Assembly (NCBI RefSeq): GCF_041260155.1
Contig: NW_027248392.1
Coordinates: 381,501-445,500 of the forward strand
Direction: 5' to 3'
DNA length: 64,000 nucleotides
Origin: Ptychodera flava
Taxonomy: Eukaryota; Hemichordata; Enteropneusta; Ptychoderidae
Shown here one piece after another: positions 16,101 through 21,457 of this stretch (its first letter is position 1; each line of letters opens with the position of its first letter). A program made the translations under genes and the position numbers. The notes beneath the pieces are model-generated. The model was not told the origin of the DNA, did no database searches, and saw nothing but the letters and a program-made list of their open reading frames with translations.

Positions 16101-19100
16101 GACCTGAAGCTTTAAATTGTCATTGATGACACTCTGCACTGTTTTAAATAGCTTGTATGCACTATTCTAAGTAGTTTGTATTATGTCAAACTCCTTAAAA
16201 AGTGAAAATGTACATTCGGCAACATGAACGTTTGACACTGACCTGTACCTGATGTATTTTCAATGGGAGAATGATATCAAATAAGTTTTCTTACAAAGTT
16301 TTATTTGGAGCTAAGTTGAAACTTTCAGTCATTATAGAGGACGGTTTTACACAACAGAGGGGTTGGGTAAGTAGAAATCATGACACCCTGAATCTTTTGC
16401 CTTGATGTGGCCGCTTGGAACATATCTATAAATTGTTTGATATACCCTAAAACTTGCGCCCAAAGGGCGCGCTGAAAATGCAAATGGCAGAAAATGCAAG
16501 TGTCAGAAGGTATTTGAAAAGGAATTAAATATTCAATAAATTCTCAAGTCCCCCCTCGTTTGCAACGTCAATTTTTTAGACCCTCTTCAAGTCCCTTCGA
16601 AATCTGCCCCCTCCAGAACTATTTGTGAATGCAGCCTAAAATCTTTAAAATATCTACTGTAATCTACTACACAACCACTCTACATTTCAGTATATAATGC
16701 GAAGTATGTAAAATAGAAAGTTTGTAAAAAGTAAGTGTCCTCTCCGCATTACATTTCAAACATCTGTTCCTTGCACTGACCACGGCGAAAGAAAATAGTC
16801 TGGCAATATATTTCAATTTCATTTCAGACATCCCATCCCTATACAGATCTCGATGTCAGAAGGAAATCGCAAACTTACATGAAATCTGGAAAATTTGTTT
16901 TTGAATTTCCCCGCGACCGACTGCATATCACAGAAACCATACGGACTAGTAGATTCTATAGAATTGTGAAGGCCATAGCTTGGTTTATAGATGGTAAAGA
17001 TGGACCAAGTGATGTTGCAATCAAAACTGAGATTGGTAGGAAATGTTGAAGTTTCAATTTGCCATATGACATTAAGTATTCGATAATTTTAATAAATGTT
17101 CTTCCACCAACAGTGATGCTATTCAAGCGTCCGAAAACCTATTTCCTAATTAATAATTAATAAAAAATAGCAAAAATTTTGAAGAGATGAATATTTACCA
17201 GATATTTTAATATACAAAGTGGCGAACAAGATGTACGCTAATCTCTGTCTAAGTAAAATTAACGAAATACAGTGTATGCATAACACATCCTTTTCTGCAA
17301 GGTTTGAAGCACGAGTAATCAAATTTGTTGGTGGAAAGAAACAAATAAATTACGTTGCAATCAACAGAAATAGGGTTTTAGTGAAGTTGCTCCTTTACAA
17401 TGACTGCGGTATTGGTAAGTTTATATCCCTCAGCAAAGACCTACTTAAAGGACACAACAGATGCATAGTCTCAATTTGATGAAACATTTTCTACATATAG
17501 TAAAATCCTACTTTGCCATATTCCGAAAGTATCCGAACTGTCCAATAACTGCTTTAATCGATTCGTTCACACAGATTCAACTGATCCTAAGATTCCCATC
17601 GATATGTTAGAGGAAATAAAACTGATGAAGAAAATACAGAGCGACGAAAATGTGATAAAAATGTTGGGTTACAGTACTGAAAACGGTAAGAATATTTGAT
17701 CGCATCTTCTGATATTGAGACTGTTAATTGAACAGGATATATAGATTGATACATATGTGTACAAGCTTATTTGAATTTTCTGTAGTTTTGTACCATTTTT
17801 TGTAGTTTAATCGTTCATAAAATAAATTTAGGTTGTATTTCCCCTTATATGGGTTAAAATACTCAGCTTCAATAATGGAGTAACATTTTCAATTACGAAG
17901 GGCCAATTGTTTTAATCATGGAGTATGCATCGTATGGTAACTTGAAGACTTACCTGAAAGAGAACCGTCCGCATTTTACATCTGGTAAACACGATTCCGC
18001 ACGAAGACAAATGCTTGCATTCGGTACAGACGTTGCTAGTGGGATGAATCACCTACAAAGAAACAAGGTAAGGATACTAAGGACGGTAGCATGCAATGTG
18101 AAAACTCAAACTACACGCCTTGAATAATGGATGGACGATTGATGGCTACGGATTAGTAACGTCATTTACTGTAAACGAGTACCTTCAAATGAAGAAAAAA
18201 AACAGAACATGAAGTGCAAGGCGGATAGCTTTTATGCTTAAAATCTGTGATCGACGGCCAACAAATTCTGACCCACAATTATTTATAAGGATATGGGGAA
18301 TTTGAAGGCAAATTATTGATTCGAAAAAATAAGCGACCTTTTACTTTATCCCATAAAAGATTGTACATCGATACCTGGCGGCTAAACACGTGTTGGTATG
18401 TGAGGGAGGTATCTGCAAGCTATCAAACTTCAGCTACGCCAGTGGTGTGATGAGTGATGCAATGTTTTCGAAACCAATAAGGTTATGTATTTATTTGTAT
18501 ATTTATTTATTTATTTATATATTTATTATAAATTCATTTATTAGTTTGCTTAGTTTTCAGTTTAGTTTTGTATTTTTTGTTGACTAGTTTGTAATTATAC
18601 TTGTTATTTTTTTAGATTTCCTTTCTATTCATTCATTGTATTGTTTATTTACGATAATATTATCATTTTTTTTGCCATTTATAACATTTGTCAATCATTT
18701 CAAACATTGTTGAATCTTGTCTATGTTATTGCCTTCAGTTTAGTTTTAAATTGACATCACGTTTCAGAATAGTCGCTTTCAAAGCGTATCTTTGTGCATT
18801 TAGAGACTTACAACATAAGTATATTTAACTAAAAGTTGCATCATTTGCTATTCAATGATAAAGAAGCTTTCCACGTCTTACCGCTCACGGCGGGAAAAAA
18901 AGTCATTATCATATACCCATGCCCATATTGCTACATCCTAGTGACGTTCGCCGTAAAATATCAGCCGTGATATTTCACGGTAAACGTTGAGATATGCACG
19001 ATGAACGTCATCAGTTTTAGAGCTTTCCCGAACTACATTAGCAGTTTGTTGGTAAACAACGTAAACAACAAAATGGTTGCCGCTCCCCGCCTGCAAAGCG

Positions 19101-21457: not shown

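Follow-up and report, generated by a model that had tools for sequence, protein, structure and literature searches.

A stretch of 64,000 nucleotides of the acorn worm Ptychodera flava (the window) carries two copies, A and B, of an Ig-type receptor gene whose tyrosine-kinase-like domain has altered catalytic motifs. The question raised by this locus is whether such domains are the debris of decaying genes or belong to a receptor family that gave up catalysis and was kept for another purpose. A first-pass annotation of the sequence favoured the second answer. Here the claim is examined on the basis of the gene structure of both copies, the motifs and phylogeny of their relatives, and the pattern of substitution between A and B.

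Gene structure of the two copies

The interval to which the first-pass annotation drew attention begins with the first base of kinase exon 1 of copy A, after an AG (16828), and ends with the last base of the stop codon (21457), just as it had been delimited. The sequence HRYLAAKH...NFSY is present in all three catalytic-loop exons of the window (18360, 52513, and 60819), and both kinase-start exons encode a loop devoid of glycine (RTSRFYR in A, RTSTFHR in B). The motifs described as retained are found in copy A (VAIK, APE, helix F and C-lobe) and, for VAIK, in copy B, but helix F of B has Glu for Asp. The three catalytic exons all exist but represent only two independent copies, the third having arisen through a 4.2 kb tandem duplication within B (95.8% identity over 4206 columns) and having no acceptor AG. 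A search of the 64 kb with the degenerate pattern HRxxLAA returned four places, namely the three catalytic exons and a minus-strand site at 35422 inside the Ig5 exon of B, against an average of 0.01 expected in shuffled sequence.

Table 1. Position of the exons and other elements of copies A and B in the window.
Feature	Position	Strand	Remarks
Copy A Ig domain 1 exon	6770..7104	+	Frame break near 6805; tblastn with P. flava P0124, translation
Copy A Ig domain 2 exon	8191..8476	+	Frame break near 8345; tblastn, translation
Copy A Ig domain 3 exon	9263..9529	+	tblastn, translation
Copy A Ig domain 4 exon	9798..10059	+	Frame break near 10003 within a T run; tblastn, translation
Copy A Ig domains 5-7	10783-11106, 11449-11784, 11912-12214	+	tblastn, translation, Pfam Ig families
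Copy A fibronectin type III (FN3) exon	12395..12688	+	tblastn, translation; Pfam fn3 E 3.4e-5, 24.4 bits, slightly below the cut-off of 25
Copy A transmembrane exon	13238..13372	+	Hydrophobic stretch judged by eye
Copy A small juxtamembrane exon	14422..14463	+	TT at the site where B shows donor GT
Copy A juxtamembrane exon	14925..15055	+	
Copy A kinase exon 1	16828..17035	+	Juxtamembrane Tyr, degraded glycine loop RTSRFYR, VAIK Lys
Copy A helix-C exon	17575..17685	+	Conserved Glu present
Copy A hinge / helix D-E exon	17901..18067	+	
Copy A catalytic-loop exon	18360..18481	+	HRYLAAKH / NFSY; end out of phase with the following exon
Copy A APE / helix F exon	20137..20245	+	
Copy A helix G exon	21080..21176	+	
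Copy A last exon and stop	21349..21457	+	
Copy B ectodomain	34208..36972	+	Ig4, Ig5-7, FN3
Ty3/gypsy-type LTR element	38631..44822	+	Inside the copy B transmembrane exon; GTAC on each side
Copy B rest of transmembrane exon	44823..44951	+	
Copy B juxtamembrane exon	45645..45775	+	
Copy B kinase exon 1	48398..48605	+	RTSTFHR, VAIK
Copy B unit 1 hinge exon	51513..51679	+	
Copy B unit 1 catalytic-loop exon	52513..52635	+	HRYLAAKH / NFSY
Copy B unit 1 APE / helix F exon	53407..53515	+	Helix-F Asp changed to Glu
Copy B unit 2	56918..61213	+	Tandem copy of 48586-53606, part of whose interior is deleted
Copy B unit 2, second catalytic-loop exon	60819-60941	+	AT replaces acceptor AG
Copy B helix G exon	61963..62059	+	
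Copy B last exon and stop	62688..62793	+	

Copy A spans about 6.77-21.46 kb and comprises seven Ig-type exons, an FN3 exon, a transmembrane exon and two juxtamembrane exons followed by seven kinase exons (Table 1). This order matches that of a receptor with ectodomain, transmembrane segment and kinase, the exons presumably being joined as they are arranged; the small juxtamembrane exon is of phase 1-1, so that its skipping is possible. A further candidate exon between kinase exon 1 and the helix-C exon (17302-17415) was rejected on account of a stop, seen by eye, in the required phase. The intron 5' of the APE exon contains nested inverted repeats with arms of 27-29 nt (19723-19881). Between 2637 and 5684 there are several ORFs of about 60-300 amino acids on both strands, perhaps of a mobile element, and three of these ORFs had no Pfam match when tested.

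A full kinase reading of copy A, as assumed by the first-pass annotation, is not one open frame in this sequence, the catalytic-loop exon having 122 bases (123 in B) and ending out of phase. It is one of four exons with frame breaks, together with those of Ig1, Ig2 and Ig4, and all the breaks lie near short homopolymer runs as judged by eye. One-base assembly errors are a fair explanation, since the LTR pair of the element nearby differs by homopolymer-associated gaps only and the coding part of that element is split as well. The kinase of copy A is at most 78% identical over most of its length to any protein among the matches listed, and the copy is therefore not confirmed as an annotated gene; it is a functional gene marred by assembly errors or else a recently formed pseudogene.

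Copy B (34.2-62.8 kb) begins at Ig4, for which two frame breaks were seen by eye and one by tblastn; Ig1-3 were not found by tblastn within the 64-kb window. Its helix-C exon is lost, leaving in both duplicate units a truncated remnant with an in-frame stop (about 51360-51398 in unit 1), and its transmembrane exon is interrupted by the LTR element. With its coding sequence disrupted in these ways, copy B is, in the present sequence, a dying copy. Neither copy is demonstrated to yield a full receptor, given the four frame breaks and the lost donor GT of A and the missing helix-C exon and the inserted element of B.

The two LTRs of the inserted element are identical at 568 of 571 columns, the remaining three being gaps in or between homopolymers with no substitution, and its coding sequence is broken up into eight ORFs that overlap. 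Matches to reverse transcriptase and RNase H (42.8-44.1 kb) are preceded upstream by integrase matches (about 41.5-42.5 kb, some of them weak). Ty3/gypsy elements usually show the opposite arrangement; integrase before reverse transcriptase is a feature of Gmr1-like elements. The pair formed by 48586-53606 and 56918-61213 could be a true duplication or two haplotypes placed end to end, and minus-strand LINE-like reverse-transcriptase ORFs occur between the two units.

A hemichordate family with altered catalytic residues

Relatives were collected through three protein searches, of which the best 120 rows (of 186, 235, and 223 matches, respectively) were considered. In the first search the best matches to the kinase exons, among those listed, came from P. 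flava itself and then from other hemichordates; the later searches agree, except for a few multi-kinase or other proteins in the top rows. At least 33 matches bear hemichordate names, and 30 of these reach the kinase C-lobe, providing 35 domains and 34 catalytic loops (6 from Saccoglossus, 5 from Glandiceps, and 23 from Ptychodera); three matches whose models stop before the loop (P0006, P0093, and P0105) are omitted from the motif counts. Several of the relatives come from gene prediction, and their models may be fusions or truncated. For comparison, 39 proteins were chosen by the author from the 343 matches listed.

The Asp of HRD is kept in none of the 34 hemichordate loops, being replaced by Tyr (28 loops), Asn (2) or, in one loop each, Phe, Ala, Glu, and Trp. 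The catalytic-loop Asn is retained in three loops and is His in the others, and the Asp of DFG survives in a single case (34 loops, 35 domains). No hemichordate loop combines all three residues, and copies A and B have none of them. Among the 39 comparators, 38 keep the HRD Asp, 39 the Asn, and 38 the DFG Asp. The combination of Tyr and His occurs in all 11 loops of Saccoglossus and Glandiceps as well as in most of those of Ptychodera. Other parts of the domain have been preserved: the beta-3 Lys is found in 26 of the 27 hemichordate rows that cover it (the exception being a cut model), the helix-C Glu in 28 of 28, the APE Glu and the helix-F Asp nearly always, and a Tyr follows DFG in 33 of 35 domains (P0135 and P0250 included). 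The first-pass annotation would have been undermined by relatives with intact motifs outside this locus; among the best 120 rows of each search the relatives are dead too, and no active hemichordate member was seen. Active hemichordate relatives may exist farther away, beyond these rows.

The proposal that all catalytic signatures changed together is, as worded, not supported for the whole family. P0250, a P. flava protein of 471 amino acids annotated as Cad96Ca-like, differs from the HRY proteins in having HRN with the Asn and DFG intact, and it keeps the first two glycines of a GxG loop and the activation-loop Tyr; P0135 has HRE. Given these two proteins, the loss may have been stepwise, and P0250 is possibly a half-way state.

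Two other unusual proteins were encountered. P0122 (P. flava, 749 amino acids, annotated as JAK2-like) has two dead kinase domains in tandem and one predicted transmembrane helix with no ectodomain; it may be genuinely double or the product of model fusion, and its predicted structure is of low confidence (pLDDT 65, pTM 0.43) and gives a hint only. P0291, from the crinoid Anneissia japonica, is Cad96Ca-like with HRN for HRD, a retained DFG and a long branch, possibly an independent loss.

Fold, ectodomain, and tyrosines

The joined kinase exons of copy A match the Pfam family PK_Tyr_Ser-Thr with 232 bits (E 7e-69), and the structure predicted for P0005, which has a full kinase domain of the clade, is of high confidence (pLDDT 90.5, pTM 0.89) with RET and then FGFR2 as the top solved matches. 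Both results indicate a fold of the tyrosine kinase type. Ig and kinase domains are found in one protein in P0124 (kinase cut at its end) and P0127 (whole), the transmembrane segment being recognized by eye; FN3 occurs in copy A, P0124, and P0131, and P0127 gave no FN3 match.

Of the 39 comparators, 33 have the activation-loop Tyr, against two of 28 family members (P0135 and P0250); 20 of the 28 have Phe there. Shortly before the kinase domain, 22 of 25 covered family rows carry a juxtamembrane Tyr, against 12 of 30 comparators, and it lies in a YxxP motif in 11 of 25 against 3 of 30. With 12 comparators also having such a residue, the tyrosine is enriched in the family and not unique to it. 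Its position is, we assume, that of Tyr463 of FGFR1, and the FGFR rows P0141 and P0288 agree with this assignment. In the mouse lens, Tyr463, proposed as a Crk site, is reported to be dispensable for Crk signalling (PMC5818251).

Phylogeny and age of the loss

Trees were built without the glycine-loop, HRD-to-Asn, and DFG columns. Fourteen fragments or near-duplicates were removed before the first tree, and three long rows more before the second. In the second tree, 25 rows (23 with Tyr, 1 with Trp, and 1 with Asn at the HRD Asp position), here called the HRY clade, lie on one side of a branch with support 97/84; P0135 joins them with 99/95 and P0250 with 85/77, giving 27 hemichordate rows. 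When the long rows are kept, as in the first tree, support is 97/85 for the 25 rows and 95/69 for the 26 with P0135; P0250 lies outside, and the 27 hemichordate rows do not form one group. The clade is apart from the FGFR rows P0141 and P0288, so that its kinase is not inside the FGFR clade. Arthropod Cad96Ca rows form a separate clade (100/99), and the HRY kinases do not fall inside it despite the Cad96Ca name given by annotators.

Within the HRY clade, one subgroup unites Saccoglossus with two Glandiceps rows (98/90) and another unites Ptychodera with two more (99/94); the remaining Glandiceps row, P0247, belongs to neither. NCBI places these genera in three families (Saccoglossus in Harrimaniidae, Glandiceps in Spengelidae, and Ptychodera in Ptychoderidae). 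Since the clade spans all three in a tree made without the motifs, catalytic death is most simply dated, as far as sequences can tell, to before the split of these enteropneust families. With no HRD Asp in any of the 34 loops and one clade across the three genera, the view that the kinase was dead before copies A and B separated is borne out. PMC10114407 gives a separation of no less than 370 million years for two acorn worms, which are taken here to be S. kowalevskii and P. flava.

Selection and conservation of the altered site

Between A and B the NG86 dN/dS ratio is 0.286 for the kinase (257 codons, bootstrap 0.18-0.46) and 0.394 for the ectodomain (417 codons, bootstrap 0.29-0.53), with Ig4, the transmembrane, helix-C, and small exons and the end of the catalytic-loop exon left out of the calculation. 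The neutral ratio over the kinase exons that would have spoken for decay was thus not seen. Taken by itself, the last kinase exon has a ratio of 1.22, based on six changes; for the 43 juxtamembrane codons the ratio is 0.63 and its interval is wide. When kinase changes were polarised with P. flava relatives, 14 were assigned to A and 22 to B; only three of the 36 fall on the 64 conserved columns of 260, with 8.9 expected (binomial P 0.013), and conserved columns are avoided on both branches.

Conservation by column was computed over 32 clade domains with a total weight of 29 (P0135, P0250, P0241_2, P0004_1, and copy B excluded). His at the Asn site has a weight of 28, Tyr at the Asp site 25.5, Asn at DFG 25, and the Tyr after DFG the full 29; among the 294 columns they rank 17, 43, 46, and tied first, respectively. 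The first and third glycine positions have drifted (ranks 191 and 173, respectively), and the third residue of DFG, which is Ser or Gly, is at rank 111. Because the replaced positions rank among the conserved columns, the active site does not look merely lost, and most of its replaced residues appear to have been fixed anew. These patterns support an old, retained, non-catalytic receptor family. Since an active site altered in much the same way is kept by relatives from three acorn-worm families, the dead kinase domain probably serves another purpose.

What the receptor may do

The explanation that we consider moderately probable is that A and B belong to a hemichordate clade of non-catalytic but retained receptor tyrosine pseudokinases, which act as co-receptors or scaffolds phosphorylated in trans. 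The Ig-rich ectodomain would bind a ligand or partner, while the kinase-fold domain, itself performing no phosphorylation, would offer an allosteric or docking surface to an unrelated active tyrosine kinase. This partner would phosphorylate the juxtamembrane Tyr, at the position of the FGFR YxxP tyrosine, and the receptor would thereby signal as co-receptor or scaffold. For ligand binding, the allosteric or docking role, and phosphorylation in trans we argue by analogy with HER3 and FLOR-1. Any active partner would have to be outside the hemichordate set found, in which none of the 34 loops is intact.

Plain pseudogene decay, with A and B as dead copies and the motif changes as drift, has several traits of the locus in its favour: the frame breaks and lost donor GT of A and, in B, the missing helix-C exon, the absence of Ig1-3 from the search results, the LTR element in the transmembrane exon, the breaks in Ig4, and the acceptor lost from unit 2. 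It is true of the present state of B but not of the motifs, as drift does not account for the Tyr and His shared by every one of the 11 loops from Saccoglossus and Glandiceps and by the majority of those from Ptychodera, for the A/B ratios (kinase 0.29, ectodomain 0.39), or for changes that shun conserved columns on both branches. Moreover, LTRs that differ by gaps only and an element with its coding over eight ORFs indicate that the one-base indels may be assembly errors, and as an account of the locus decay is unlikely. A soluble or membrane decoy, in which the ectodomain is functional and the pseudokinase only a stable tail, would agree with the constraint on the ectodomain and with P. flava gene models that stop before the kinase is complete (P0093 and P0105). 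However, the kinase is if anything the more constrained part (the intervals overlap), and a passive tail leaves the conserved catalytic-loop replacements unexplained, which makes the decoy very doubtful.

The altered site may also not be idle, the pocket binding a nucleotide or other small ligand without the usual metal pair, or supporting other catalysis. Replaced positions that were fixed again while glycine-loop positions drifted, and the nearly constant beta-3 Lys and helix-C Glu, are what such a pocket would predict; table 2 of PMC13259870, with the order of its columns inferred, gives EphA10 an accessible ATP site, and this receptor likewise carries His in place of the Asn, with GFG replacing DFG, although it lacks the Lys. 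Against this, the metal ligands and the first and third glycines are gone, and structural packing alone could keep Tyr and His, so that an active pocket is likewise very doubtful. A bolder form, in which a dead family fixed its Tyr, His, Asn, and post-DFG Tyr anew to form a pocket put to new use, with a ligand or chemistry of its own, perhaps for at least 370 million years and with no active sibling, is quite unlikely.

Relation to known receptors

The family resembles the human pseudokinases HER3, EphA10, EphB6, PTK7, ROR1/2, RYK, and STYK1 in being a single-pass receptor with a kinase fold that has no catalytic residues, and it shares the change of Asn to His with EphA10 in the same table as its columns are read here. 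Unlike these receptors, it is a many-copy clade dead as a whole with conserved replacements, and its combination of HRY, His at the Asn site, and NFS or NFG is none of the eight combinations listed for the human proteins. The KIN-16 family of Caenorhabditis elegans is also a set of lineage-specific receptor kinases with a changed-motif member, FLOR-1, whose HxDxxxxN motif is altered and which works without it; according to PMC10523662, the motif is intact in OLD-1 and other members, in contrast to the 34 hemichordate loops. The nearest active kinase domains by sequence and fold, among the matches listed, are those of FGFR, RET, and Cad96Ca, and Ig domains occur as in FGFR, but the catalytic residues are gone, copy A has seven Ig-type exons plus FN3, and the clade is separate. 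P0250, a hemichordate protein that has the juxtamembrane Tyr (YMKL), is grouped with the clade in the second tree only.

Among the open papers listed on hemichordate pseudokinases, pseudokinase evolution, hemichordate receptor kinases, and Cad96Ca in hemichordates, none has a title or displayed abstract opening that describes the present family, and the main text of a survey of the holozoan tyrosine kinome (PMC8662651) contains neither 'hemichordat' nor 'Saccoglossus'. HER3 and, in the account of it cited above, FLOR-1 are dead genes acting beside active siblings, whereas the acorn-worm family appears non-catalytic throughout. P0250 and P0135 would represent possible intermediate steps of the loss, and the family, by keeping its altered catalytic loop, offers a natural test of what becomes of a kinase pocket after catalysis is gone.
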